Origin: Nitrososphaeria archaeon
Lineage (GTDB): Archaea; Thermoproteota; Nitrososphaeria; Nitrososphaerales; JACAEJ01
Direction of reading: 5' to 3'
Length of the DNA: 61,806 nucleotides
Assembly: GCA_029775925.1 (NCBI GenBank)
Contig: JARVKB010000030.1
Coordinates: 1-61,806, forward strand
Under the pieces are notes generated by a model. The model did not search any database and was not told where the DNA came from. It was given only the letters and a program-made list of their open reading frames with translations. Numbering within the stretch: the first letter of the stretch is position 1; each line of letters begins with the position of its first letter. The translations under genes and the position numbers were made by a program. Below are positions 1 to 43,930 of the stretch, one piece after another.

Positions 1-180
1 CATGGAGTAAACTTTTCTATAAGATTTACCATTTAGCTTCCTATCACCCATCGGGTCTCTAATGTACCTAATGAAGGCGATTACCCTTTCTAGAGGATGG
101 CATAATCCTTTTACTTCGAAGATCGTTTCGTCATAAATCCTAATAAAATCTCCTTCACGAAGTTTATAATTACTTATCAC
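1..180 (-). CDS. Predicted nucleotidyltransferase, N-terminal part (truncated by window edge)
   Basis: Sixty open codons run off the left edge of the window. The reading starts at a GTG at 180, because the upstream ATG in another frame hits a stop after five codons. The visible N-terminus contains KLREGDF, then GLCHPLERVIAFIRYI and GDRKLNGKSYRKVY. This pattern resembles, from memory, the N-terminal region of archaeal DNA polymerase beta-like nucleotidyltransferases (COG2413-type). The catalytic core lies outside the window, so activity cannot be judged. The gene follows the membrane-protein gene at 188-1117 by only a few bases on the same strand, which suggests co-transcription. Confidence 0.5.
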   Translation of the reverse strand, partial: MISNYKLREGDFIRIYDETIFEVKGLCHPLERVIAFIRYIRDPMGDRKLNGKSYRKVYSM

Positions 181-187
181 TACTCAT

Positions 188-1117
188 CTACTTATTAATT
201 CTAAAAAAAGAAAGAAATGAATCTTTTGCAGATATTATCTTTGGTATCCCAGTCGCAACAGATGGTTTTCTCATTCTAATGAAGAAGATGAAAACAACAA
301 AAACTACAACACCTGCTACTACTATAGCCAACCAAACCCACCATTCTATTGGAGTGCTAGGCGGTATGACATTAGATTCTATTAATGTCATCTTAATCAT
401 CAATCTCTCATCCAACCTTCTTTTAACTAGTTCCATGACACTGTTACTTACTGCTGAGGAATAATATTGTTCATAAATAGTATCAGAGGTTCTGTAAGTG
501 ATTACAAAAGTATCGAAGGTTCCTGCATCAACTTTCAATCTTTCCATTAACGGGCTTATCGTGTAATTTCGGGCAATATGAGTAATCCTAGTATCTGGAA
601 GTTCCTCAGGATAAGTTACCGTCTCAGTCCTCATTACACTCACATTCCATTTCTTTCCTTCAGTTAAGGGGAAGCTCAATTCCATAAGAGGGGGATTATA
701 GGTCACATTAGAGATTTGATACCAATTGATTTCTCCCCCTACTCTTAGCATTATTTCCATATCTTCCTTCACAGTACTCAAATCGGACTTTACCCTATAG
801 ACCATACCTTTTATAGTCCAAACAACATTTTGATCTTTCCACTCACCTTCTATCCTTTCTACAAGACAATTATATGTTGTTTCATTGATAATAACGTTGG
901 ATTCGCCTACAATCTCCTTGATAGTAGTCCCGTTCATTATAATAACCTCTGTGTCAGGGTCATAGTATTCAACCTTATACTTCCAACGATTACCTACAGA
1001 GAGAGATGGCATTTGTGCTTCAGTAGCGCTAATATATGGTGTTAATATAGCCAATGACATCAGAAAGATAAGATTTAACGCTATAGTTTTTTCTAACTTT
1101 TTTTGCATTATTACCAC
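188..1117 (-). CDS. Membrane-anchored secreted protein of unknown function
   Basis: The 309-residue product has a signal peptide at about residues 4-32 (charged MQKKLEK then a hydrophobic stretch ending TPYISA). A beta-rich extracytoplasmic region of about 220 residues follows, with several N-x-S/T sequons. One C-terminal membrane helix lies at about 259-281, then a short basic cytoplasmic tail. The segment VDAGTFDTFVITYR recurs in many archaeal and bacterial extracytoplasmic beta domains, but I cannot name the family. The real start may be ATG codon 4, which gives the more usual signal-peptide N-terminus. It lies directly upstream of the truncated nucleotidyltransferase gene. Function is unknown; the topology (outside domain, inside tail) is inferred. 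Confidence 0.75.
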   Translation of the reverse strand: MVIMQKKLEKTIALNLIFLMSLAILTPYISATEAQMPSLSVGNRWKYKVEYYDPDTEVIIMNGTTIKEIVGESNVIINETTYNCLVERIEGEWKDQNVVWTIKGMVYRVKSDLSTVKEDMEIMLRVGGEINWYQISNVTYNPPLMELSFPLTEGKKWNVSVMRTETVTYPEELPDTRITHIARNYTISPLMERLKVDAGTFDTFVITYRTSDTIYEQYYSSAVSNSVMELVKRRLDERLMIKMTLIESNVIPPSTPIEWWVWLAIVVAGVVVFVVFIFFIRMRKPSVATGIPKIISAKDSFLSFFRINK

Positions 1118-1217: not shown

Positions 1218-2231
1218 ATGGTAATGGAGAACGACCTTATAAAAAAGGCTAACGATATAATGATTGCAGCCCAGCTCGCATCAGCTCTAGAAGTTAGTGG
1301 GACACCTAAGCCTGGTAATGTGCATAGAAATGCAGATTTTATGGATACAAGATTTGAGCACTACCTAGCTGGCTCAATAGCCATCGGTCCTCATATAAGG
1401 GATGTAGCATTGATGGGGATGAATGCAGGTCTAGGTCGTATTAAACTCAGTAGGATAAGTATTGGCAGATATATAAAAAAAGCCATTCATGAAGTAAGAA
1501 ATTGGCATAAAGGAGGGAACACTCATTTAGGCATAGTGTTACTCTTAATTCCATTAGCAGCATCAGCAGGATTTATGACCACAAAATTTGGGAATATAGA
1601 GCCCAGTGGATTACGTTCAACTTTATCCAAGATTATGAAGGCTACTACTTATCAAGATGCTCTTGATGTTTGGGATGCTATTCTAGAGTCTAATACCTCA
1701 TCTTTAGGACAGTTAAGTCCAGATATTGCCCCAGATTTTAGGGATGCTGATGCAAAGGACAAAATAATAAAGCAAAAAATTCGATTATACGATTTGATGA
1801 AAATCTCTTCAAAATGGGATAACGTGGCTAAAGAGTTAACCACAGGCATGAGAATTTCTTTTAATTTAGGTTACAAGACACTTTTAGATGTTTATGAGAA
1901 GACAGGCGATATCAATACAGCGACTGTCCATACTTTTTTGACAATATTGGCAAAGCACCCTGATACACTTATCGCCAGAAAAGTAGGGTTGGAGCGTACA
2001 CAAAATATAAATGAGGCAATCAACATAGGAATCATTGAATCTAAAAAGATTTCAAAAAAAGCAAAGATGATTTTAAGACTTGGAGGATTAACCTCTGAAA
2101 AAGGTAAGAAAGCATTGGAGCATTTTGACAAAGAATTGAGAGATTCTAAAAATAAATTAAACCCCGGAACTACTGCTGATATCGTAGCTTCATCCTTGAT
2201 GATAGCAATTATATGTGGGATGAAAGTTTAG
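1218..2231 (+). CDS. CitG/MdcB-like triphosphoribosyl-dephospho-CoA synthase family protein
   Basis: The 337-residue protein carries the two signatures of the CitG family: SGTPKPGNVHR at residues 27-37 and GGNTHLG at 99-105, followed by a hydrophobic helix. In bacteria this family makes the triphosphoribosyl-dephospho-CoA prosthetic-group precursor of citrate or malonate lyases. No lyase genes are in the window. Archaeal homologues usually occur without such lyases, and their substrate is not settled; a role with a pterin or nucleotide cofactor is possible but speculative. It stands alone between the divergent secreted-protein gene and the tRNA. Family assignment is firm, reaction is not. Confidence 0.8.
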   Translation: MVMENDLIKKANDIMIAAQLASALEVSGTPKPGNVHRNADFMDTRFEHYLAGSIAIGPHIRDVALMGMNAGLGRIKLSRISIGRYIKKAIHEVRNWHKGGNTHLGIVLLLIPLAASAGFMTTKFGNIEPSGLRSTLSKIMKATTYQDALDVWDAILESNTSSLGQLSPDIAPDFRDADAKDKIIKQKIRLYDLMKISSKWDNVAKELTTGMRISFNLGYKTLLDVYEKTGDINTATVHTFLTILAKHPDTLIARKVGLERTQNINEAINIGIIESKKISKKAKMILRLGGLTSEKGKKALEHFDKELRDSKNKLNPGTTADIVASSLMIAIICGMKV

Positions 2232-2277
2232 TTAAAATAATTAAGAATAAAAACTTCTTTTTGTTAAGTATACTTAG

Positions 2278-2352
2278 GCGGAGTTGGTCTAGCCTGGTTA
2301 GGATGTCAGCCCCCCAAGCTGAAGGTCGCGGGTTCAAATCCCGCACTCCGCA
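2278..2352 (+). tRNA. tRNA-Gly (anticodon CCC)
   Basis: A full cloverleaf can be drawn over 75 nt: acceptor GCGGAGT paired with ACTCCGC, a four-pair D stem, anticodon stem TCAGC/GCTGA, a five-base variable loop, T stem GCGGG/CCCGC with loop TTCAAAT, and discriminator A. The anticodon loop at 2311-2317 reads CCCCCAA, which places CCC at 2313-2315. Position 33 is then C instead of the nearly universal U. The GCG acceptor start and A73 agree with archaeal tRNA-Gly. CCA is not encoded (TACCA follows) and there is no intron. Confidence 0.93.
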
Positions 2353-2456
2353 TACCATGGAGAGTTGAATGCGCATCTTTTTTACTATAGTGCAAAAAGG
2401 TGTGAATGAGAGAACACATGAGGACTATTAAAGGGATACTAAAGAAGTTCTTAAGA

Positions 2457-3001
2457 TCAATAGGTATCGATTTTTGACTTTCTTCTTCGAATTAGTAAGA
2501 AATAGGTTATTGTAACTACCATTATGATAATTATAAGAATACCAGCACCTAATTTTAAGATCGGTGCAGACACTATGATTAGATAAGCTGTGTAAGTTGG
2601 GTCGTGCTCTATCCTATAGCCGCTATAAGTAGGAGATGAGATGATGTAAAAGTAGTCTGCATAGTCCCAGTCTAAAAGATGCCTTTTTGGCTTGTTCGAA
2701 TAGCTCTGGGTTAATATTTGCTATAACCCACGGGATATGGCGCATTAAGTATGTATGAACCCTAAAGATGCCATTCGTAGGTTGGTGGGCAAAGCCAGCT
2801 ATCTTACTCGTTCTTGTATTCGCAGCGTAGGTTTCGTAAATAGATTCTGTTTGATCGAAAGTAAAATTATACAATTTGTAATTCTTTTTGTTTACAAAGT
2901 TAGCTTCAAAGATTCTTTCTCCATCATTCGAAGTTGTGGTTATTCTAGAATCACTTACATCGACTTCCTTGTCATTTACATTGGTATTTCCCAGACTTTG
3001 T
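2457..3001 (-). pseudogene. Decayed gene remnant for a C-terminally membrane-anchored protein
   Basis: Two minus-strand reading frames join into one protein-like sequence. The upstream frame covers about 3001-2690 and reads through KNYKLYNFTFDQTESIYETY and HQPTNGIFRVHTYLMRHIPW. The downstream frame covers about 2690-2457, with DWDYADYFYIISSPTY, then a membrane helix and an RRRK-rich tail, ending at a TGA at 2457-2459. The frames switch at the short T run near 2684-2688 (plus-strand numbering). No start codon of its own is visible and the 5' end abuts the stop of the sugar nucleotidyltransferase gene, so the N-terminus is lost. I do not recognise the family. Confidence 0.6.
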
Positions 3002-4285
3002 TTATTCAGCTAACTTCACTATGTCCTCATGGCTTTGAAGAAATTTATCTATATAAGTCATTCGTGGCGGAATCGTTAGACCTGGATTAACTTTAGTCCT
3101 TATTAATTTGCAACCTTCTTTGATATGCACAGCGTTTCCTATAATAGACATCGATTCAATATATGTAGGATTTTGAAAAGTCGACTCTATTACAACCTTT
3201 CTACCTAGAATGCTATCAGATACTTGCGCACAATCTCCGATCCTACCAGCATCCATGATGGCTGAATTTTTTACACCTACTCTTTCTCCAATTATACAAA
3301 AGTTGTCAATGTTAGAGTCTATGATTCTCGTATAATCACCTATCCTTGTGTGCCTTCCAATTAAAGCTGCCCCTTCTATGTATAGCTTATTCTCTTTACA
3401 TTTTCTTAGTATTTCCTCCCTCCTCTTTATAGATTCTTTGCTATATCCCTGAACCCAAATGTTCTTGCCTGGGAATAGTCGCTCTTCTGTAACCCCTATA
3501 TCCAAAACACCGTAAAGAACATCTCTCATAGCCTTCAAATAACTTTCTGGAGTCCCCAAATCGTACCATATTTGCAACTCATAGCCATAAACAGGTATAC
3601 CTTTATTCACTAGATAGGGAATAAAGTCGTAACCAAAATCTAATCTTCCATTTTTCTCTCTTATTTTAATTACATCTTCACTTTCAACCTCTTTTCTAAT
3701 TTCTGGTGAAAGAAGATATATGCCAGCATTGACGTAATTGCTTGGAGCCTCGCTTGATGAAGGTTTTTCGATGAATCTTTTTATTCTCATATCTGGCCCT
3801 AATTCTGCTACACCATAATCTTCAACATTCTCTACCCTAAAGAGAGCGATACTCATCATCGCCCCTCTTTCTTCATGTTTTTCCAAAAAATCGTTGAGAT
3901 CGATTTTAAAGATGTTATCTCCTTGTACAACGATAACGGGATCGTTTACATCATAGTATTCCATGTTCAGCCTATATGAATCAGCGCTTCCTAAATCGTC
4001 TAAGTTAGGTTGATGTTTAATGTGCACCCTTGGTTCAATTTTATACTTTGCAGAAAAACCAACCCCTTCTCCATATTGATCAAAAAGGTTTGTATAATTT
4101 ATGTAGCCGTTTTCTCCAAAAATGAAGTTTCTAACGCCCTGCTTAGCTAGCTCAAGCATGGCAAATTCAATAAGAGGCCTATTTAGGAATCTTATACAAG
4201 GCTTAGAAACATCTTGAGTTAAAGGTCTTAACCTCAAAGCTTTACCTCCAACAGGGATAAAGCACCTTAAATCTTCTATTTTCAT
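3002..4285 (-). CDS. Sugar-1-phosphate nucleotidyltransferase with left-handed beta-helix domain
   Basis: The product has 427 residues. Residues 1-240 form a nucleotidyltransferase domain with the nucleotide-binding loop GGKALRLRPLT (13-23), the KP that follows it, and VVQGDN for the metal-binding Asp. Residues from about 290 contain hexapeptide-like repeats (IGRHTRIGDYTRI, IGERVGVKNSAIM, IGDCAQVSDSILG) of a left-handed beta-helix. The loop starts PVGGKA where bacterial enzymes read LAAGKG. Such proteins make UDP-, dTDP- or GDP-sugars for glycans or protein glycosylation; the sugar and nucleotide cannot be read from sequence. A second, single-domain enzyme of the superfamily lies at 55199-55891. 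The start ATG at 4285 is the only good choice. Confidence 0.85.
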   Translation of the reverse strand: MKIEDLRCFIPVGGKALRLRPLTQDVSKPCIRFLNRPLIEFAMLELAKQGVRNFIFGENGYINYTNLFDQYGEGVGFSAKYKIEPRVHIKHQPNLDDLGSADSYRLNMEYYDVNDPVIVVQGDNIFKIDLNDFLEKHEERGAMMSIALFRVENVEDYGVAELGPDMRIKRFIEKPSSSEAPSNYVNAGIYLLSPEIRKEVESEDVIKIREKNGRLDFGYDFIPYLVNKGIPVYGYELQIWYDLGTPESYLKAMRDVLYGVLDIGVTEERLFPGKNIWVQGYSKESIKRREEILRKCKENKLYIEGAALIGRHTRIGDYTRIIDSNIDNFCIIGERVGVKNSAIMDAGRIGDCAQVSDSILGRKVVIESTFQNPTYIESMSIIGNAVHIKEGCKLIRTKVNPGLTIPPRMTYIDKFLQSHEDIVKLAE

Positions 4286-33852: not shown

Positions 33853-35610
33853 CTAAAACGGTAACATGAAGAAAACTTGAGTAATGTATATGGCGATAAA
33901 GCTAACGATCACAAGAGCCCCTGCATGTTTAAAGCCTGCTGCAACGCTTCCCTCTCCCATCTTTCCTGCAACAAAGCCCATTATCCATGCTTCAAGAATA
34001 GCACTACTAAGCAATACATCTATTGTTAATTTAAGATCAACACCTGTATAAATTCCTACGGGCGACCCAATCAAAGGTACAGTTACAAAGTAGATCATCA
34101 TAATTGTTGTTGCTACAACCATTACCGCACCAAAGTAAGGTATGAATATATATGGTCTTAAAGTAGCCTTCTTCTCCTTCTCGATCTCACTCATCTTTTG
34201 GCTGAAGTCAGCCAAGCTTCCAAACATTTTCACTGTTCCTCCCCCAACGTCTACAACCTCTAAAAGTAAAAATGCAATAGCTCTTACAATCCAACTTCTT
34301 ACTGATCTTGAGAAGTTGACCATAACCTTACGTAAGGGTACCCCCCATGAAAGTTGAGCTGACATGGTTTTAACGTATTTTGTCAACCCGCCGTAACTTC
34401 TATTGGCAAGTTGCTCTATGCATTTTTCTGGGGCCAATCCAGTCTTCCTGATTTCTGCTACATCTCTTAAGAAGCTTGGTAACATATTCTCGACAGATTT
34501 TCTATGAGATGCATCACGTTGATGAATTATCGCTGATGGTATCACCGCTATTAGTAATCCTAAACCAAGTTTCATGTAAAAGGGTGTTTGAGGTATAAGG
34601 AACATTAATGGTATTATTATTGAGCTAAGTGAAAAGACTAAATACGGTGTAAAGTAAATGAACGGCTCTTTAGGTTGAATGCTATGAACCATAAATATGA
34701 ATAAAGCTGAGACAAGAGGGATAAAGACGACTGAGAAGATCACAATACTAGTTAAGCCTGCTCCACCTCCTTGGCCTAAAAGGGCTTGTACAGCAAAAAG
34801 AACGAAGAAAGATATGCCAAGAATAACTGCAATAGAAATATATGCTTCTGCAAACGTTCCTATAAGCTCGGCTGCGCTTTTCATCTTTATGGTTCTATAT
34901 GCAAATATATCTTTAAGCTTTGATTCCATAAAACTTACCATATCCCCTCCAGTCTTTAATATCGATGTGTATCCTCCAAGAAAGTCTGATAATGCTTTAT
35001 TTGGGTTATATCTGGCTGCTTTATCTAAAGCAGATACAGGATCCATGCCAAATACATCTATATCCGCTAGTATTCTTTTAGCTTCTTTTGCTGTAGCAGG
35101 ATAGAGATCGACGTTACTTAGTCTCTTAAGAGTTACAAGAGGAGAAATACCACCACCAGCTAATGTAGTAATATAACCTATTACGAAAGGTAATTCATTA
35201 TCTATTGCACTTGCCCTTGAGGATTGGCTCAACTTAGGTGCAATTAATCCTAATGCAAATACAATTGGTGCAATAGGAAGAAGAAAAACACCGATGATTA
35301 ATCTATATGCAAAGATTAAGTAAAAACCTAAAATCGTTGGGATTATGCTAACTATCGTGAAGAATAAAACTAGAGAGATGAGAACTTCTGGTGTAATTAT
35401 AAGGTTTGATTTTTGTATATCATCCTTTAACTGTGGCATTCTTTTACTTAACCAAATAGAAGGCCTTCGTAAAATTCTAAAGGTAAAAGCTGTAAACTTA
35501 TCAGTAAGTGTTATCTTAAAAACATCTGATTCTGATTTATTTGATAATGGGTTCGATTTGCTTTTCAATCTTCTCAAAAACACCTTTTGGATTGTTATGG
35601 TATTGCTCAA
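33853..35610 (-). CDS. TadC/FlaJ-like pilus or secretion platform membrane protein
   Basis: The 585-residue protein has two T2SF-type domains, each with a soluble stretch (for example ARYNPNKALSDFLGGYTSIL and LRDVAEIRKTGLAPEKCIEQ) followed by membrane helices, about nine helices in all. It is the inner-membrane platform for type IV pilus-like filaments. Its first 74 nt overlap the end of the ATPase gene; an internal GTG or TTG start a few codons downstream is possible. It pairs with the ATPase at 35537-37135 and the peptidase at 42789. No pilin gene is obvious nearby. Confidence 0.9.
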   Translation of the reverse strand: MSNTITIQKVFLRRLKSKSNPLSNKSESDVFKITLTDKFTAFTFRILRRPSIWLSKRMPQLKDDIQKSNLIITPEVLISLVLFFTIVSIIPTILGFYLIFAYRLIIGVFLLPIAPIVFALGLIAPKLSQSSRASAIDNELPFVIGYITTLAGGGISPLVTLKRLSNVDLYPATAKEAKRILADIDVFGMDPVSALDKAARYNPNKALSDFLGGYTSILKTGGDMVSFMESKLKDIFAYRTIKMKSAAELIGTFAEAYISIAVILGISFFVLFAVQALLGQGGGAGLTSIVIFSVVFIPLVSALFIFMVHSIQPKEPFIYFTPYLVFSLSSIIIPLMFLIPQTPFYMKLGLGLLIAVIPSAIIHQRDASHRKSVENMLPSFLRDVAEIRKTGLAPEKCIEQLANRSYGGLTKYVKTMSAQLSWGVPLRKVMVNFSRSVRSWIVRAIAFLLLEVVDVGGGTVKMFGSLADFSQKMSEIEKEKKATLRPYIFIPYFGAVMVVATTIMMIYFVTVPLIGSPVGIYTGVDLKLTIDVLLSSAILEAWIMGFVAGKMGEGSVAAGFKHAGALVIVSFIAIYITQVFFMLPF

Positions 35611-37135
35611 AAACTGCTCCTATGTCTCTATAATTCCTAATACCTCTCTTCCTTAGCCAATCAAGTATTACCATTCTTCTATCAAGCTCCTCAAGAACTT
35701 CGTCCATACTTATCCCTTTATCTTTTGCTAGCTTTTTTAATTTGTAGCTATCTTCAAGATGATTAGCGATGAATGAATCGCTAGAAGGTACCCACTCAAA
35801 AACTCTAAGATACTTACCATACTCAATAACCTCATCTACGGATATGACACGACGAGCAACTTTAAGAAAGCCACTTTCAGCTATAGGTATTGCTACTCTT
35901 CGAGTAGATACTACCAAATCGAGGAAAGGTATGTACGAAGGAGATACATCCATTGGTTTTGAGGTTAATCTTTGCATAGCTGAATAAACATCATCAGCAT
36001 GGAGAGTGCACATACCACCATGGCCTGTACTTATGGCTTGAAACAGGACAAAAGCTTCTTCTCCACGAACTTCTCCAACAACTAACATATCTGGTCTCAT
36101 TCTCAAAGACGCTTTGACAAGATCGTATAATGTTATTTCCCCTATTCTTTCTGCACCAAATCCATAGCTAGGTCTTGATACTAATGGTACCCAATTTTGA
36201 TGTGGTATGTTTATCTCTTGAACCTCTTCAATAGTTACTATCTTCAAATTCGGTCTGACCATTGTTAGCAGAGCATTCAGAGTGGTAGTCTTGCCACTAG
36301 CAGTTGCTCCAACTACTATTGTTGATGAACGGTTCTCCATAAGCATCCAAAGATAGCTAGCAATCTTATAATCAAGAGTACCAAAATTTAACATATCTAT
36401 TATTGTAATGGGATCTTCACGAAACTTCCTTATAGATAAAGTGCTACCTTGAGGGGATACCTCACGTCTAAAAGTTGCTGCCAATCTATGCCTACCTGGT
36501 AGTGTTGCATCAACGACAGGATAAGCAGTTGAGATATGCTTCCCTGCAAGATGAACGAGCCTTATTATTGTATCGTCAAGTTCTCTATCATTATCAAACA
36601 CTAAGTTTGTCTCAAGGCTTTCATACTTTCTATGCCAAACGAAGGCTGGCTTACCTACACCATCTATGGATATGTCTTCAATATTAGGATCGAGCATAAA
36701 AGGATCTATAGGGCCATAGCCTATCATATCTCTCTCAGCAAAATATAGGATTTTTGACCATGAGACGTTAGCTATCTTTCCTAAGCTAAGCTTGTACTTA
36801 TCAATCGTTCTTTTTGCATGTTCCTCAAAGTACACTTTAGGATCTATTTCACTTCTTGGTACTTTTAATTCTATTTGAAGTATGTTTATAATATCACTAT
36901 AAACCTTTTTTTCTTCGTCATTTAAACTTAATTCATCTATAAGGTACATTGGGGTTCTTTTTACTGGATCTTCAGCAATTATTGCATATACGAAAGGCTC
37001 CTTTAAAGGATATCTTTCGATTACAGGTATTCCTAAAGGTATTGGCCTTGCTACTATAGGCTCAAAAAGAAGTTCTTGGTCCTTAGCATATGCTTTTTTA
37101 TTTTTTGCCAATTTATATACGATTTTAAAATTCAA
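35537..37135 (-). CDS. TadA/GspE-type secretion ATPase
   Basis: The 532-residue protein powers assembly of pilus-like filaments. It has an N-terminal domain of about 230 residues, Walker A GATASGKT (276-283), the Asp/Walker B region RMRPDMLVVGEVRGEE and the His box TGHGGMCTLHADD. The order and spacing match archaeal VirB11/GspE-family ATPases, and all key residues are present. It overlaps the platform gene and is the upstream gene of this two-gene operon. A 405-bp gap without gene lies upstream. Confidence 0.94.
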   Translation of the reverse strand: MNFKIVYKLAKNKKAYAKDQELLFEPIVARPIPLGIPVIERYPLKEPFVYAIIAEDPVKRTPMYLIDELSLNDEEKKVYSDIINILQIELKVPRSEIDPKVYFEEHAKRTIDKYKLSLGKIANVSWSKILYFAERDMIGYGPIDPFMLDPNIEDISIDGVGKPAFVWHRKYESLETNLVFDNDRELDDTIIRLVHLAGKHISTAYPVVDATLPGRHRLAATFRREVSPQGSTLSIRKFREDPITIIDMLNFGTLDYKIASYLWMLMENRSSTIVVGATASGKTTTLNALLTMVRPNLKIVTIEEVQEINIPHQNWVPLVSRPSYGFGAERIGEITLYDLVKASLRMRPDMLVVGEVRGEEAFVLFQAISTGHGGMCTLHADDVYSAMQRLTSKPMDVSPSYIPFLDLVVSTRRVAIPIAESGFLKVARRVISVDEVIEYGKYLRVFEWVPSSDSFIANHLEDSYKLKKLAKDKGISMDEVLEELDRRMVILDWLRKRGIRNYRDIGAVFEQYHNNPKGVFEKIEKQIEPIIK

Positions 37136-37540
37136 ATGATATAAACATTATTCCAATCTTTTTGATATTTAAGTAAAAATTATACAACTCTATATCTAAC
37201 TAATCTTGACCTTATAAACTAGGAGGGAATGAACCTGGAACTTGATAAATAATACCATCTATAACAATTAAAAGACGGGCTTCGTTATATTCTTGATGAA
37301 AAGTGTAGTTAATTATTTTTTGATCAAGGATAAAATAGCATGCCATTGCAAAAACATCTTACTACATCCATTCTCATCTTCTTAACTGCTCGAGCATTTG
37401 AATTATAAAAAATTTAAATAGATCTGGGATCTATTCCTACTTATCATAAATCTTTTTATCAACTCTTTATTATCGAATTAAGAATTGAAGAGAAATAGAA
37501 TTGTAAAAAGACAAATTATAATAAAGGCGATGAACAAATA
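37136..37540. other. Divergent intergenic region between ATPase and coiled-coil gene
   Basis: This 405-bp AT-rich gap separates two divergent genes and should hold both promoters. I see TATA-like A/T runs but no GC-rich island, repeat or small gene that I can support. Confidence 0.45.
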
Positions 37541-39172
37541 ATGAGTGAAAGAATAGAAAAAAATCTAATCATACCTTCCTTTGCTCTATCCTCCATAAAT
37601 AGGAAGCCTATCGATGAGGAGCTAGAAATAGCTTTTATTTACTATATGGTTGAAAGAGAAAAAAAGAAATCCTTTATAAAAAAGGAGAGAGAAATTATAT
37701 CCTTTATTATAAAAGCTTATTATGGAATTTGGGCTTATCCGATAAGCAATAAATGGATATTTATTGATCCTATTAAGCTTCATTCGTTTTCTTTAAAGAC
37801 TTTTGAATTGCCTCAGATAGAAGAATTCATAAACCAATTGAAGGATGCTCACAATAGTAGAAATCTTTTCAATAGTCTTCTCATAAGGCATAATAAGACT
37901 TTTTCCCAATTTAAAGAAAAGTATTATACTATATCTGGTCTAATAGACAAACCCCTCGCATTAGCCATTGTTAATTATATTAAAGATGTTGGTACCATTA
38001 GTACTCCATATCCGAATTCTCTTATGCTGCCTTTACAATTAGACGAGGGAAAGATGCTGGAAGTTGTTTATGAATTGAATAAAATAAAAAAGGAGCTTGA
38101 AAACGGCATCGCTAAGCTTGAGGAGACAATAAGAGTTTTAGATGAAGAAACTAGCCACCATATGGCTCAAATAGAAGAGGAAATAATCAGCATAAATAAT
38201 GAGTATAAGAATCAAAGGGAGGTTACATTGGAGATTATCAACAGGTCCATAGAACAGCTTAAGATGAAAAAAGAGCTTGAGATGAAGATGGTCTTATCAA
38301 GATTCGAGGAACGTAAGGAACTTTTTAATTCTCAAATAGGAGAATACAGAAAATTATCCATGTACTTGAAAAAAGATTATGAGACCTTAAAGGAGATGAT
38401 AAATTCATCTAAATCTTCAAGAAAAGATAAGATTTACCTTGATCTTTGGAGTAAAATACTAAAGGATATTTCTTTAAGAATAGAAGGAATTGAAAAGGAG
38501 ATTGAAGAGATTCAATCTGTGATAAAAGCTTTAGACGATGAGAGAGAAAAAGAGGTATCTTCTATCGAGTATGCATACAAACAACTCATGGAATCTAAGA
38601 TGAAATCACTTAATGACATGGAGATAGAAAAAGAATTAGAAGTAAAGAAAAGAAGGGAAGAAGCAAAGGACCTTTCCAACAAAGTAATGAATTTAAGACG
38701 CCAGATACTAGATATGCACAAGCATGCAAAAATCAACTTAGAACAGATAAATCAACTACCATTGCAAGAGTTTAACGGCAATGAACCAAAATTATTATGC
38801 ATGCCTTTTTACCTTATTTGTTATGAAGATATAAAAGGGCGGAAAAGATACAAAGCAAAACCTCCGAGTATTATTCAATTCCCTTCTTACCCTCCATTAA
38901 AATGGATGCGTAGCATATCTTCTCCAATTCTCAGGCCTTATTCTGGTCAAATCATGAACATTTTCGAAGTCAAATTAATTGAACATATTGTAGCAAATCC
39001 TATCTTCGAGGGAGAGATTTATAAGATGGGTAAGAATTTAGATTTGTTAACTTCTTTTGAAGCTAAAAAGCAAATATTTGATGCTATCGATTCACTAATA
39101 AAACAAGGTTGGATTCCTCATAGACAAGCTTCTTTGCTTAAGAGGAGCTTGAAAGTGATACCTTCATCCTGA
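37541..39172 (+). CDS. Large coiled-coil protein of unknown function
   Basis: The 543-residue protein has an N-terminal globular part (1-160) with aromatic-rich segments such as AYYGIWAYPISNKWIFIDP, a long coiled coil (about 165-410) dense in E, K and heptad leucines, and a C-terminal globular part with PPSIIQFPSYPPLKWMRS. There is no membrane helix or signal. I recognise no family. It sits in the pilus-ATPase island and could be a cytoplasmic partner or cytoskeletal-like element of that machine; this is inference from position only. ATG at 37541. Confidence 0.85.
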   Translation: MSERIEKNLIIPSFALSSINRKPIDEELEIAFIYYMVEREKKKSFIKKEREIISFIIKAYYGIWAYPISNKWIFIDPIKLHSFSLKTFELPQIEEFINQLKDAHNSRNLFNSLLIRHNKTFSQFKEKYYTISGLIDKPLALAIVNYIKDVGTISTPYPNSLMLPLQLDEGKMLEVVYELNKIKKELENGIAKLEETIRVLDEETSHHMAQIEEEIISINNEYKNQREVTLEIINRSIEQLKMKKELEMKMVLSRFEERKELFNSQIGEYRKLSMYLKKDYETLKEMINSSKSSRKDKIYLDLWSKILKDISLRIEGIEKEIEEIQSVIKALDDEREKEVSSIEYAYKQLMESKMKSLNDMEIEKELEVKKRREEAKDLSNKVMNLRRQILDMHKHAKINLEQINQLPLQEFNGNEPKLLCMPFYLICYEDIKGRKRYKAKPPSIIQFPSYPPLKWMRSISSPILRPYSGQIMNIFEVKLIEHIVANPIFEGEIYKMGKNLDLLTSFEAKKQIFDAIDSLIKQGWIPHRQASLLKRSLKVIPSS

Positions 39173-39232
39173 ATATGTTAATTGACGAAAATAGAAAAAA
39201 TTTATTAGAGAGTTATCATATTTATCTTCGGC

Positions 39233-39541
39233 TTGAAAGTAATTCGAAGATCAAAACTTGAGAGGTTAATGGACATCTTAAGAGTCATAAAAATCACAGG
39301 TCTTATAAAACAGACACATATAATGTATAAAGCAAATCTAACTTGGGATGAATTAAAGAGGGACTTACAATGGCTTATGGATTTGGGTCTCATTGAAAAA
39401 ATATTTGTAAGTGAAGGTATATGCTATAAAATAACTCATCTTGGTTCTGACGCACTCGCTCATTTCCAGAAAATTGAATCTATGCTTAAATTAGATCAAG
39501 AAAAGAAACTTTATAGTGAAAAAAGCTTAGCCATGGTATGA
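39233..39541 (+). CDS. Winged-helix transcriptional regulator
   Basis: The 102-residue protein starts at TTG 39233. It has the pattern of archaeal winged-helix domains (ILRVIKITGLIKQTHIMYKANLTWDELKRDLQWLMDLGLIEK, then a beta hairpin with YKITHLGSDAL), like the HTH_45 group. It follows the coiled-coil gene by 60 bp and might control this island. Target is unknown. The start is not certain, since in-frame codons near 39233 also include no ATG upstream. Confidence 0.75.
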   Translation: MKVIRRSKLERLMDILRVIKITGLIKQTHIMYKANLTWDELKRDLQWLMDLGLIEKIFVSEGICYKITHLGSDALAHFQKIESMLKLDQEKKLYSEKSLAMV

Positions 39542-39547
39542 TAATAG

Positions 39548-39751
39548 CTAATGTACTTCATAAACAAAAGTCAAAAAACTAAGAATGAGGAATAGAATTA
39601 AAAAAACTAATATCATTGTTAATGATATTAAAAAGGGTGATACAAAAGGCTCAAAATAGACTTTTATGAAGACAAAAAACACCCATCCTAGTGCTACGGA
39701 TGCTAAAAATGAGAAAAAAACTGCTATTGCAATGCGAATCCATGATACCAC
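39548..39751 (-). CDS. Two-helix small membrane protein
   Basis: The 67-residue protein is almost wholly hydrophobic, with helices at about 4-29 and 38-64. It is convergent with the winged-helix gene (gap of six bases) and 23 nt downstream of the coiled-coil gene at 39775, with which it probably forms an operon. No family recognised. Confidence 0.55.
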   Translation of the reverse strand: MVSWIRIAIAVFFSFLASVALGWVFFVFIKVYFEPFVSPFLISLTMILVFLILFLILSFLTFVYEVH

Positions 39752-39774
39752 TTACATCAGCCTGGAAACGATCA

Positions 39775-40209
39775 TCAAGGCTTTAAATGGACCATTAGCT
39801 TTATGGGGATATTATCACTCATAACTGCCGATATAGTTACTATACCTTCCTCAAAGCTTGCAAGAGGGTCTAAAGCTTTTCTTATCTTTTGCATTATATT
39901 TAATTTGTCTTGCAGACTTTTTACTATGTCTTCGAGGATTTCTGTCTCTTGTCTTAAACTTGGGTTAACAAGGACTCTTAAACCCGATAGATCTATTTCT
40001 TTTCCATCAAAAGAAGTTACTTGCTTTTCTCCTGCAAGCTTTACAATGGCTTCTTGAGCCTTCTTTAACCTCTCTGCTTTAATACGATTCTCCTCTAAAC
40101 GGCGAAGATAATCACCTAATAGGGTTCTAATCCTACCTACTTCATCATCTAAGAACTTTTTAAACTCGTCTGGCGTATTAAAAGTTTTAAACTCTAACGA
40201 AGTTTGCAT
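39775..40209 (-). CDS. Small coiled-coil protein of unknown function
   Basis: The 144-residue protein has two helical stretches (about 12-58 and 85-118) predicted as coiled coils around a short middle part FDGKEIDLSGLRVLVNP, and ends in a beta-like segment. No catalytic motif or membrane segment is visible and I do not recognise the family. It precedes the two-helix membrane protein on the same strand, so the pair may form a soluble/membrane couple. Confidence 0.7.
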   Translation of the reverse strand: MQTSLEFKTFNTPDEFKKFLDDEVGRIRTLLGDYLRRLEENRIKAERLKKAQEAIVKLAGEKQVTSFDGKEIDLSGLRVLVNPSLRQETEILEDIVKSLQDKLNIMQKIRKALDPLASFEEGIVTISAVMSDNIPIKLMVHLKP

Positions 40210-40536
40210 TTATAAGAAAAGAGGAAAACGTATATTTAACATTTTTTATTTACTTTTTCGATGATGTCATGATAAATCATTAATGCGCACCCAGTTGTAT
40301 ATAGCTATGAAAGCCCTTTTTACAGCCATGTAGAATAAGTCTCTTCCTATACGATAAGTCTATAAAGTATAGCATAGAAGCAACGATTCACATCTGGTTT
40401 TTATTTCTCTTAAAGATGCTACTCTTTTTACCTTATCCATAAGGCTGTAAAACTGAAATAGGTGACCTTAGACTACACATCAAACAGCATAAAGGCCAAA
40501 GAGCTTAGACAAGAAAGGTTAAACCTTATCGCAATA
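40210..40536. other. Intergenic region between coiled-coil and PRC-barrel genes
   Basis: This 327-bp gap contains only short frames (a 29-codon GTG frame near its right end) that lack protein-like support. I see no GC-rich island, tRNA or repeat; the upstream promoter of the 39775 gene should lie here. Confidence 0.45.
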
Positions 40537-41904
40537 TCATCTACTCTTTAAAAACCCTATGAATAAGCCTCCAATAAACCCCATCAACGCATTCACTAAG
40601 CTTTGGAAATAAATAAAGGCATCGCTTGCCGCATATTCCAAAATCTCTATTACATTATTTAGGATAAAACTAGGTAATAAGATTGTTAAAAAGTCCTTTA
40701 ATCCTAAAGAGAGTAATAAGTGGAGAATCATTGCTATTATAAATGTACCGAGTAATCCACTTATAAGACCTGACAAAGCTCCTTTCTTCCATTCTTTAAT
40801 AATATATCCTGCCACCCCTCCAGAAAATAATGCGCCAACATAAAAAAAGAGACCAATGAAGATCATAAGAATGACACCAATGCCAGTTCCATAGAAGAAA
40901 ATTTCCAGCCCTGTTTGAAATACAACTGGAAATTCTTTTTCTTGTATACTTGAAGAATAAGTTTTCTTTACCATATCTTTAGAATTAACTTCCACCTGCT
41001 TTGGTTCTTCTGTCTTCGATTCTTCTACAAAAACTTCTGGTAAAGTTTTATTTAATATTACAACATCACCTATCTTCTTTATCTGATGCCAAGGTACAGA
41101 AGATTTATACAAAAAAACACTCTTACTGGATACAAGATTCGTGGGTATCTCGTAACCTCTCATTTTTGCATATGCTAATATCTTATTATCAGTTAAATCT
41201 TGTGGCTGTTCAAAACCTAAGGATTCCATATGCTTTATAAGATCTTTTGGCTTTTTTTCAGAAAAAATCCTTTTTTTCAATCGGTTCATGTCTGGGACTA
41301 ATCTTGTAACCATTACCTCTTTGCATACTTGAATGCTCAGACCTTCAGGGCTCATTAAAATGCCATATAGTTTGCCTAAAATCTTTGCTGAGTTATCTAC
41401 GACAAGCTTGCCTTTCAAGTTTTCTTCCTTTTGGTAATTCGGAGACTTTTGTGGCGCTATGCCTCTTATTGTACTTTCTATTGGACTTTTGAGTAAAATA
41501 CAACTCCCTAAATCACTTTTATTCATAATTTCAACATCACTTAATTGAATATCTGGCTTCTCTTCTTCCACTTCTCTTGAAACTTCTTTCACAGGTATCT
41601 TTACCTCTTTAAGTTTCGCATAGTTTACTAAATCGTTTTCTGTTATCGATTGTATCTTGAGTTCATTTATTATAAATTTGTAAAGTTCTTGAATGTTAGA
41701 TATGTTATACTTTTCTTTATGATCCCTTAGAAGAATTTGTTTTAATGCTTCAACATCAGGCACTTGTTCTTGAACCTTCTTTAAAGATTTAACCTTAAAA
41801 AATGGACCTTCTGGTTTAATATCTACTTTTACCACGTGACCGTAAATGTAACCTTCAGAGTCCACTACTAGAGCATCAATCAATTCTGAAGGTGTAAATT
41901 CCAA
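40537..41904 (-). CDS. Tandem PRC-barrel protein with C-terminal membrane domain
   Basis: The 455-residue protein begins with a PRC-barrel-like segment (DALVVDSEGYIYGHVVKVD), has a second one near residues 165-200 (KLVVDNSAKILGKLYGILM), each followed by a small helical repeat ending in KYNISNIQEL- or DLTDNKILAYAK-like sequence. From about 335 it has four or five membrane helices with glycine-rich loops. PRC barrels occur in the archaeal division protein CdvA and in RimM. A membrane-anchored scaffold is a reasonable guess. It is divergent from the KaiC-like gene, with 88 bp between starts. Confidence 0.75.
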   Translation of the reverse strand: MEFTPSELIDALVVDSEGYIYGHVVKVDIKPEGPFFKVKSLKKVQEQVPDVEALKQILLRDHKEKYNISNIQELYKFIINELKIQSITENDLVNYAKLKEVKIPVKEVSREVEEEKPDIQLSDVEIMNKSDLGSCILLKSPIESTIRGIAPQKSPNYQKEENLKGKLVVDNSAKILGKLYGILMSPEGLSIQVCKEVMVTRLVPDMNRLKKRIFSEKKPKDLIKHMESLGFEQPQDLTDNKILAYAKMRGYEIPTNLVSSKSVFLYKSSVPWHQIKKIGDVVILNKTLPEVFVEESKTEEPKQVEVNSKDMVKKTYSSSIQEKEFPVVFQTGLEIFFYGTGIGVILMIFIGLFFYVGALFSGGVAGYIIKEWKKGALSGLISGLLGTFIIAMILHLLLSLGLKDFLTILLPSFILNNVIEILEYAASDAFIYFQSLVNALMGFIGGLFIGFLKSR

Positions 41905-41992
41905 ACTCGATCCTACTCACTACTGATGTATTTAAAGGGTTAGAATTTTTAAACCTTTATATTTAAAGTTAAACATTATAATTCTCTGGTAG

Positions 41993-42754
41993 ATGGATTT
42001 GGTAAATAGAGTTCCAAGTGGAATTGAAGGATTGGATGAGTTAACAGAAGGCGGCTTCCCGAGAGGAAAAACGATAGTAATATCAGGAGTTCCCGGATCT
42101 GGAAAGACGACTTTTTGTATAGAGTTTCTTTATAAAGGTGTATTAGATTATGGCGAGAATGGTGTTTACATAACTCTTGAGGAGAGCCCTGAAAGTGTAA
42201 TAAAGAACATGATGAATCTAGGCATGGATTTAAAGAGCTTAACATCGAAAGGGAAGCTACTTCTTGTAGATGCAAATCCATTAAGAGGAGAGACGATGCT
42301 CACTGTATCTGGTGTTCATACAGGATTTATCGAGTTCAAGGCTTATGGATTATCAGAGTTGATAAGGCAAAAAGTTAGAGAAATAAATGCAAAGAGGGTT
42401 GCTATAGATGGATTAACAGCCTTATTAATGCATTATAAAGATGACTTTGAAAGAAGGTTAGAGATTGTACGTTTACTCATAGGCATATCTGGTTTAGATT
42501 GTACAACCTTAATCACAACTGAGCATCGAACTTATGAATTAAGGAAGTATTTTCTTATGGAGCACTTTCTTGCTGATGGTGTAATCTTTTTGGATATGTT
42601 CCAATCAGGAGGAGGGTTTGTTAGAGGAATTCAAATCCAAAAGATTAGAGGTATAAAGCACGATTTCGATTTCCATCTATATCGCATTACTGATAAGGGT
42701 ATAGTAGTCTTCCCAAAGGAGAAAATATTCGCTCCGTCAAAAGAAGAAGTATAG
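41993..42754 (+). CDS. Single-domain KaiC/RadA-like ATPase
   Basis: The 253-residue protein is a RecA-superfamily ATPase of the archaeal KaiC-like group: GLDELTEGGFPRGKTIVISG, Walker A GVPGSGKT (32-39), the ITLEESPESVIKNM segment and VAIDGLTAL as Walker B. Such proteins act as signalling ATPases; in archaea the best-known relative is the archaellum protein FlaH, which works beside the FlaI ATPase and FlaJ. Its position with a secretion ATPase island makes a FlaH-like role possible, as inference. It is followed after 34 nt by the prepilin peptidase gene. Confidence 0.88.
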   Translation: MDLVNRVPSGIEGLDELTEGGFPRGKTIVISGVPGSGKTTFCIEFLYKGVLDYGENGVYITLEESPESVIKNMMNLGMDLKSLTSKGKLLLVDANPLRGETMLTVSGVHTGFIEFKAYGLSELIRQKVREINAKRVAIDGLTALLMHYKDDFERRLEIVRLLIGISGLDCTTLITTEHRTYELRKYFLMEHFLADGVIFLDMFQSGGGFVRGIQIQKIRGIKHDFDFHLYRITDKGIVVFPKEKIFAPSKEEV

Positions 42755-42788
42755 GCTCAATATTTTTTAATTATACACGGGCTTATTT

Positions 42789-43484
42789 ATGCTATTACTA
42801 AAGCTATTTGTTTGTATCCTAATGCTAATTTATGCATCTTACAGTGATTGGAAGACAAGAGAAGTCGATGATAAGCTATGGATAATATCCTCATTTATAG
42901 GAATAACCATTAATTTAATCGATCTTTCTTTTCAATTTGAGATCAAATTATTAATGCTAGTCATAATTTCCATATCTCTAATCTCTTTAATCTCCTTTAT
43001 ATTCTATTATATTGGATTCTTTGGAGGTGCTGATATGAAAGCATTAATAGCCATAGCATTGATAATTCCGGTGTATTATCCATCAAAATATATTCATCCT
43101 TTTACATCTTTGATTTCTCTTACCAATGGTGCCTTCCTCACTTTAATCCTTCCTTTGATATTTTTCATTATGAACATGACAAGAATTCTTCGTGGCAAAA
43201 AAATCTTTTCAGGATTTGAAAGTGAGAAGATTTGGAAAAAATTTCTTGTATGCTTTTTAGGATATAGAGTAAGCAATGTCAAGAAGGAACAGTTTTTTAT
43301 GAGTTTACAAAAGAATATTAATGGAAAAAAAGTTTTTCACATATCTTTATTAAAAGATGAAGAGTTTATTTCGGGTCAAGACGTTTGGGTGACGCCTGGT
43401 ATTCCATTATTGATTTTCATAACCTTTGGGTTCTTATTAACGATAACTTTTGGCGATCTTCTTGCCCTTTTCTTTCAATTCTAG
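42789..43484 (+). CDS. Archaeal prepilin/preflagellin peptidase (A24 family)
   Basis: The 231-residue membrane protein has about six helices and the two catalytic aspartates of A24 aspartyl proteases: D20 in SDWKTREVDD and D82 in GGADMK. These enzymes cleave class III signal peptides of pilins and archaellins. It lies in the pilus island with an ATPase and a platform protein, and directly after the KaiC-like gene. The pilin substrates are not found in the window. Confidence 0.92.
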   Translation: MLLLKLFVCILMLIYASYSDWKTREVDDKLWIISSFIGITINLIDLSFQFEIKLLMLVIISISLISLISFIFYYIGFFGGADMKALIAIALIIPVYYPSKYIHPFTSLISLTNGAFLTLILPLIFFIMNMTRILRGKKIFSGFESEKIWKKFLVCFLGYRVSNVKKEQFFMSLQKNINGKKVFHISLLKDEEFISGQDVWVTPGIPLLIFITFGFLLTITFGDLLALFFQF

Positions 43485-43510: not shown

Positions 43511-43930
43511 ATGTGCATAATAAGGATTAATATGCCAATATTTGTTGTACATGAGCATTGGGCTTCTCATCATCATTTCGACTTTAGACTTGAGATGGGC
43601 GATGTTTTAAAATCTTGGGCTGTACCAAAAGGACTGCCAAAAGAACCTGGTATTAAGCGATTAGCAATAGAAGTTGAAGACCATCCTCTCGAATATGCGG
43701 ATTTTGAGGGAACGATACCTGAGGGCGAGTATGGTGCAGGAAAAGTGGAGATATGGGATAAAGGTAGCTATACATTAAAGGCAAGAAAAGTTAGAGAAAT
43801 ACGTTTTGAGCTAAAGGGGAATAAGCTTAACGGAGATTATACCCTCCTCCTTATAAGAGAAGAGAAAGGTAGAAGGCAATGGTTGCTTTTTAAAAATAGA
43901 GACCAAAATTGTAAAGAGAAATGTCTATAA
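43511..43930 (+). CDS. Stand-alone LigD-type 3'-phosphoesterase
   Basis: The 139-residue protein matches the phosphoesterase domain of bacterial LigD: HEHWASHHHFDFRLEMGDVLKSWAVPKG, then DHPLEYADFEGTIPEGEYGAG. The histidines, the Asp in FDFR and the arginine of the active site are present. In bacteria the domain trims 3' ends during non-homologous end joining; here it is not fused to ligase or polymerase, nor are Ku or ligase genes in the window. The likely true start is the ATG at codon 8 (MPIFVV). Role in repair is inferred. Confidence 0.92.
   Translation: MCIIRINMPIFVVHEHWASHHHFDFRLEMGDVLKSWAVPKGLPKEPGIKRLAIEVEDHPLEYADFEGTIPEGEYGAGKVEIWDKGSYTLKARKVREIRFELKGNKLNGDYTLLLIREEKGRRQWLLFKNRDQNCKEKCL

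Follow-up and report, generated by a model that had tools for sequence, protein, structure and literature searches.

A type IV pilus assembly island in a Nitrososphaeria archaeon and its probable pilin locus on other contigs

The window analysed here, a stretch of 61,806 nucleotides, is the entire contig C8 of a metagenome-assembled genome (MAG; 1,401,784 bases, 34 contigs, 96% complete, 3.2% contamination). Between positions 33853 and 43484 it carries the genes of a pilus-type secretion ATPase, a platform protein and a prepilin peptidase, together with a large coiled-coil protein (CC543), a winged-helix protein, two small proteins (TM67 and CC144), a tandem PRC-barrel membrane protein and a KaiC-like ATPase. 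This island quite probably encodes the only machine that its host, a member of Candidatus (Ca.) Methylarchaceae, has for type IV pilus assembly, with pilins that act in trans and are encoded by a block that has been relocated. It is an archaeal type IV pilus system in a new lineage-specific arrangement and not a new machine. As read from the sequence, the core genes are single-copy, pilins lie elsewhere in the genome, synteny is kept in relatives, a palindrome is common to the two loci and CC144 is linked to pilus genes across the phylum. The MAG HK01M, whose contig JAKLZD010000024 matches G005:C49, is in the family of the window genome, and the window was therefore assigned to Ca. Methylarchaceae, an mcr-bearing family within Nitrososphaeria (PMC9478090).

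The assembly machine, its pilins and their position

All genes described for the island are open frames within 33853-43484, and these frames and their Pfam matches confirm the gene content that an earlier note on this DNA had listed from the sequence alone. That note had also called the region a pilus-type assembly island, and T2SSE, T2SSF and A24 peptidase genes are indeed all present. The platform protein (33853-35610, minus strand) is of the TadC/AapF/ArlJ type and consists of a single protein of 585 amino acids (aa) with both T2SSF domains (Pfam T2SSF twice, 2.3e-22); its nearest NCBIfam models, UpsF/BasF, scored below their cut-offs. Its gene adjoins and overlaps that of the secretion ATPase (35537-37135, minus strand; Pfam T2SSE 1.5e-37), a pilus assembly ATPase of the T2SSE/VirB11 family with intact motifs (Walker A GATASGKT, and LVVGEVR). 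Among NCBIfam models the ATPase comes closest to FlaI and BasE, at scores under both cut-offs, and the TadA model gave 195 bits where the cut-off is 373. The A24 prepilin peptidase (42789-43484, plus strand) is of the PibD/FlaK type (Pfam Peptidase_A24 1.9e-13, Arc_PepC_II 6.6e-13) and has intact DWKT and GGAD motifs. Genome-wide there is one T2SSE ATPase, one T2SSF protein and one A24 peptidase, all inside the island.

Two side observations concern these genes in relatives. The ATPase gene contains an intein of ~490 aa in some of them (L030:2940-6017, on G003:C64, and L043:219-3284, with split matches in L047 and L048), inserted after the Walker B region, with Intein_splicing matches of 6.8e-18 and 2.9e-15 and a LAGLIDADG_3 match in L030; the window copy is without the intein. 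A PhoU/AbrB-like gene adjoins TadC in relatives (L026:4187-5248, L029:5797-6882, L030:8042-9097) and precedes PGK where the contig includes PGK, and the corresponding space in the window is only ~180 base pairs (bp).

Two features, the KaiC-fold ATPase in the vicinity of a FlaI/FlaJ-type pair and the presence of FlaI among the nearest NCBIfam models of the secretion ATPase, could point to another kind of secretion system or motor, archaellum-like or Tad-like, with the KaiC protein in the role of FlaH. However, the archaellum equivalog models ArlH, ArlI (FlaI) and ArlJ (FlaJ) gave 64, 361 and 88 bits, far under their cut-offs of 215, 550 and 550. The pilins described below are of the PilA type and adjoin the ATPase in relatives, and the genome has only one ATPase for any filament, which together make this explanation highly improbable. 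The KaiC protein itself (41993-42754, plus strand; Pfam KaiC 6.7e-64) is a single-domain, CI-like ATPase with intact motifs (Walker A GVPGSGKT, and TLEE as the catalytic Glu pair), and its closest structure is KaiC CI (2e-64), whereas FlaH structures matched at only 3e-5 to 6e-4. Given these values and the low ArlH score, FlaH/ArlH was rejected as its identity, and the label FlaH-like in the earlier note was not upheld. Six further KaiC-family matches, some partial, were found in the genome.

A scan of the window's open reading frames for the N-terminal pattern of class III (pilin-type) signal peptides found none, in agreement with the earlier remark that no pilin is visible in the island; the same pattern matched 11 of 11 pilin-type proteins from the window genome and relatives that served as a control. 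A search for pilins outside the island, in line with a check that the earlier note had proposed, located them on contigs C27 (Pilin_N E 1.8e-7) and C14 (7.2e-5), with the signal peptides KGISPVIASII and KGVSPVIATTI. Contig C14 (locus L053) carries a pilin (179-607, minus strand) and a second pilin (pilin2; 1282-1737, plus strand), each with a class III N-terminus. The gene of a class III protein of 443 aa comes next (1734-3065, plus strand); this protein has a large outer domain, is 86% identical to the tip protein of the related genome G001 and is probably an adhesin or tip. Past the tip gene, C14 leads to a PIN toxin gene and then an acylphosphatase-type gene, and not to the ATPase. Contig C27 (locus L052) begins inside a pilin gene (L052:3-404), which is followed by a PMT-type glycosyltransferase gene (L052:493-1818), one gene shared with G001 and then aquaporin, DUF2193-like and FdhD-like genes (named by eye).

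Positions 1-146 of C14 align with 604-451 of C27 at 93%, and for the pilin N-termini the figure is 98%. The two contig ends therefore probably represent a single locus at which pilin alleles or strains differ, as judged by sequence similarity. The data suggest that pilin variation, either strain-level or allelic, broke the assembly at these ends. The pilins at L053:179-607 and L052:3-404 have near-identical N-termini and downstream flanks, unrelated outer domains and positions at contig ends. The PMT-type gene adjoins the major pilin in the genus (on C27, and at L027:4597-5589 in G001), and a similar-looking glycosyltransferase gene lies beside a pilin in a Desulfurococcales MAG (L034:2957-4147). 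The PMT-type protein is a candidate pilin glycosylation enzyme.

The earlier suggestion of a pilin-less system was thus not supported, as pilins are present on C14 and C27 and the island holds the only secretion ATPase of the genome. That note had itself stated that a pilin locus elsewhere relying on this ATPase would speak against its proposal, and the locus found here would have to use the island ATPase. In the model proposed here, the peptidase would trim pre-pilins, and the ATPase and the platform protein, as predicted from their genes, would assemble the trimmed pilins into a filament. The pilins would be supplied in trans from the unlinked locus, which would provide one or two allelic major pilins, with the PMT-type glycosyltransferase alongside, as well as the second pilin and the 443-aa class III protein as a probable adhesin or tip.

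Conservation of the neighbourhood, which the earlier note had named as a check, was found in relatives, with the core synteny kept in G001-G003. The order in G001 (L016/L027) is GAPDH-PGK-TadC-TadA-188aa-tip-pilin2...pilin-PMT...CC543-winged helix-TM67-CC144-PRC-KaiC-A24-LigD_N, which places the pilin block (L027:5984-9037) after the ATPase and before CC543. In G003 (= L.E.AR.22; L019) the tip and pilin2 genes are upstream of CC543, which is oriented as in the window, and on a second contig other tip genes are directly upstream of the ATPase. Pilin-type genes are also immediately upstream of the ATPase in the H03B2 MAG. The winged helix-CC144-PRC-KaiC-A24 genes are retained in G005, and a G006 fragment retains PRC-KaiC-A24. 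The set from the winged-helix gene through TM67, CC144, PRC and KaiC to the peptidase is thus kept partly or wholly across three genera of the family, and it is therefore not a random mixture. The earlier note had offered a choice between an unusual surface machine and partly unrelated genes; what stands is a lineage-specific gene arrangement, and neither a new machine nor a random mixture.

By blastn, the window aligns with sister genomes on either side of the interval 37181-37409 but has no match in them within it; the boundary at 37181 is upstream of TadA and that at 37409 upstream of CC543. In the sister genomes the ATPase and CC543 flank the pilin block, and this block therefore probably moved away from here in the window genome. 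The main alternative to such a relocation is an assembly error, in which the window contig was joined wrongly across a pilin block that this genome, like its relatives, has between the ATPase and CC543. Relatives that show the ATPase-CC543 region carry pilin-type genes there, and the start of C27 inside a pilin gene and the end of C14 just past it look like the mark of a hypervariable site or of mixed strains. However, C27 runs into genes that are absent between these loci in G001 (aquaporin, DUF2193-like, FdhD-like), C14 does not lead from the tip gene to the ATPase, and both flanks of the ATPase-CC543 junction are normal promoter sequence. A mis-assembly is thus considered improbable, and relocation of the pilin block is the preferred explanation.

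A palindrome shared by the two loci

A 19-bp palindrome, AATAGA-N7-TCTATT, was identified at 37417-37435 by promoter comparison and exact search and is a putative operator. The motif AATRGA-N7-TCYATT was derived by comparing and aligning several pilin and CC543 promoters. The window genome (1.4 Mb) has two exact sites, one upstream of CC543 and one upstream of the C14 pilin. When seven whole genomes of the family were searched, 11 exact sites were found, 7 of them intergenic and 4 within coding sequence. Five of the intergenic sites are upstream of CC543 (G000, G001, G002, G003 and G006) and two are upstream of the pilin (G000 and G001), and every exact site away from CC543 or the pilin is intragenic. 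The single site of G006, a genome that was not used in the derivation of the motif, is at CC543. A site with one mismatch precedes pilin2. The site at CC543 is 282 bp from the start of TadA, and no site was found near the own start of TadC/TadA or near CC144, PRC or KaiC.

The winged-helix protein (39233-39541, plus strand) is a DNA-binding protein of HTH_45 type (Pfam 3.4e-16) and Sso10a-like (NCBIfam 1e-14, below cut-off), and is a candidate regulator of the palindrome. In the window its gene is co-directional with CC543 after a 60-bp gap, and in G001 and G002 both genes diverge from the site. This layout would fit a winged-helix protein that regulates its own gene and the pilin as well. The palindrome at the pilin and CC543 promoters is probably the binding site of this protein, or of another regulator that acts as a dimer, and the two separated loci would thereby be coordinated. 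Two separated loci tied by one palindrome present a testable regulatory model in uncultivated, putatively methane-cycling archaea.

Several points weigh against the conclusions drawn here. The genome is a 34-contig MAG with 3.2% contamination, and the direct ATPase-CC543 junction, known here from assembled contigs, may be an artefact of assembly. Contig C14, which carries pilins, has a length of just 5.3 kb and may have been binned wrongly, though it is 85-86% identical to G001, a member of the same genus. The total number of palindrome sites is not above the backward control (11 versus 12) and only their positions are special; the argument therefore rests on position. The motif also came from aligning these very promoters, and only the occurrence in G006 is fully independent. 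Additionally, distant homologues of CC543 are not near pilus genes, and the P value for CC144 linkage given below takes genomes as unrelated.

CC144 and the other neighbours of the core genes

Compared with their bacterial counterparts, the type IV pilus machines of archaea seem much simpler and comprise an ATPase, a platform, a peptidase and pilins. CC144, a 144-aa alpha/beta coiled-coil protein (39775-40209, minus strand), had no family match in Pfam or NCBIfam and was followed by a profile search and a locus survey. A profile built from eight seed sequences matched 109 of 299 Thermoproteota genomes and 0 of the f10 genomes. In a sample of 40 CC144 loci from 39 genomes, all outside the family of the window, a TadA-type ATPase was within the fetched stretch at 15 loci, compared with 2.0 expected from per-genome ATPase counts (P 2.6e-10, ignoring relatedness). 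This linkage spans about 12 families, frequently in the order CC144, a secreted protein of ~850-1250 aa, TadA and TadC. In a further lineage group (L096, L097, L109, L115) CC144 adjoins a class III pilin and roadblock-like proteins (by eye), and in G007, of the same order as the window genome, TadA, tip, pilin, a ~1030-aa secreted protein, CC144 and the peptidase form one cluster. In many other genomes CC144 is among housekeeping genes, far from pilus genes, and its pilus linkage is therefore common but not universal. A comparison of the presence and absence of CC144 and the ATPase was without power, as T2SSE is found in 295 of the 299 genomes.

By these counts of gene neighbours, the CC144 family is linked to pilus ATPases beyond chance in unrelated families, and CC144 probably acts in the cytoplasm as an accessory factor for pilus assembly. 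Its recurrence beside the ATPase or pilins in many Thermoproteota families makes it a concrete candidate for a missing pilus part. A broader proposal, which we put forward only tentatively, is that CC144 may be an unrecognised pilus part found across the Thermoproteota, a small cytoplasmic factor for assembly or coupling that bacterial systems are without. In Ca. Methylarchaceae it would act together with a lineage-specific module of CC543, the tandem PRC membrane protein and KaiC, the last as a timer or switch, under an operator that would bring the two separate pilus loci into a common regulon. CC144 and this operator are the points that deserve attention. The large secreted neighbours of CC144, often beside the pilus ATPase (L089:8427-11864, L103:5114-8050, L118:5406-8030, L105:4916-8014), showed propeller, CarboxypepD_reg or BNR-type repeats where tested, and have no counterpart in the window.

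CC543 (37541-39172, plus strand; 543 aa) lies beside the island in G001-G003. In its AlphaFold2 model (pLDDT 86), residues 169-404 form an antiparallel coiled-coil hairpin that connects a globular N-terminal and a globular C-terminal part. Searches gave no Pfam, NCBIfam or meaningful PADLOC match, no ATP-binding family and no significant structural relative. SMC/Rad50 was rejected, as only the coiled coil is similar and an ATPase head is absent. A generic pilus protein was also rejected, as distant homologues are near PEPCK, HIT and Lrp genes (by eye) and not near pili. The family has at least 3 paralogues in one Nitrososphaeria genome, G025 (L011, L021, L022), and further members in L023 and L024, beside HIT, PEPCK or Lrp-type genes. 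TM67 (39548-39751, minus strand; 67 aa) has two apparent membrane spans, as read from its sequence, and is kept in G001-G003; it had no family match in Pfam or NCBIfam. The PRC protein (40537-41904, minus strand) has a tandem repeat of a PRC barrel and a helical domain, assigned from Pfam and the repeat, and a C-terminal DUF5518-like membrane domain. The Pfam score for PRC is weak (8.4e-4, below cut-off), and the two halves of the repeat are 28-33% identical across orthologues. A widespread pilus part was rejected for this protein, which is confined to the family of the window (6 of 121 genomes of the order), and its linkage is therefore known from that family only. PADLOC gave no meaningful match for a defence system. 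Downstream of the prepilin peptidase, a stand-alone LigD 3'-phosphoesterase domain protein (43511-43930) keeps its position in G001 and G003.

These neighbours could also be explained as core pilus genes with unrelated genes beside them, where CC543, the PRC protein, KaiC and CC144 came together by chance or slow rearrangement. Consistent with this, distant CC543 homologues and KaiC paralogues lie elsewhere, CC144 is remote from pilus genes in many genomes, and the PRC protein linkage is seen in one family only. However, CC144 is linked to ATPases and pilins in distant families, the palindrome is common to CC543 and the pilin, and an association of KaiC with pili has been described independently (PMC4858521). 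This suggests that chance assembly of the whole set is rather unlikely, while it stays a live reading for the PRC protein and KaiC, which may or may not serve the pilus. A functional association with the pilus is preferred for CC144 and CC543.

Comparison with known systems

KaiC-family ATPases, roadblock proteins and pilins acting in trans have been described for archaeal type IV pilus loci, and a 2016 census listed 191 pilus-linked arCOGs (PMC4858521). KaiC genes near pili and pilins in trans are thus already described, and CC144 is the less expected element. Among single proteins, the island KaiC resembles KaiC CI and the archaeal PH0186 and PH0284 (E 2e-64 to 1e-37) in its single RecA-type domain, Walker A motif and catalytic Glu pair, but it has only one domain and is without CII. 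The winged-helix protein resembles Sso10a-type proteins in its HTH_45 match with a C-terminal extension, but at 54 bits it is below the cut-off of 60 and is likely a local regulator and not a chromatin protein. The AlphaFold2 model of CC144 (pLDDT 90.6, 45 sequences; strand, long helix, hairpin, helix, hairpin) shares the helix-beta hairpin-helix topology of prefoldin subunits but has extra strands at both ends; prefoldin was rejected, as the best Foldseek match was not significant (E 0.06) and there was no sequence match.

At the level of whole loci, the closest likeness is to the clade 4A/4H/4I/4J pili (Aap, Ups and Thaumarchaeal; Makarova et al. 2016, PMC4858521), which also have one VirB11/T2SSE ATPase beside one TadC-type platform, PilA-type pilins, large adhesin-like proteins, an A24 peptidase and pilins able to act in trans. 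Compared with these, the window island adds CC543, the tandem PRC membrane protein, TM67 and CC144 beside the core, and the pilin block of its genome is on another contig with a palindrome common to both loci. Ca. Nitrosocaldus cavascurensis, also of the Nitrososphaeria, has a large adhesive pilus locus of ~16 genes with an ATPase, a platform, a prepilin peptidase, three prepilins, a putative adhesin and a FlaH-family gene (arCOG04148) (PMC5797428). That locus differs in the archaellum/chemotaxis cluster alongside it, and no PRC-CC543 set was seen there.

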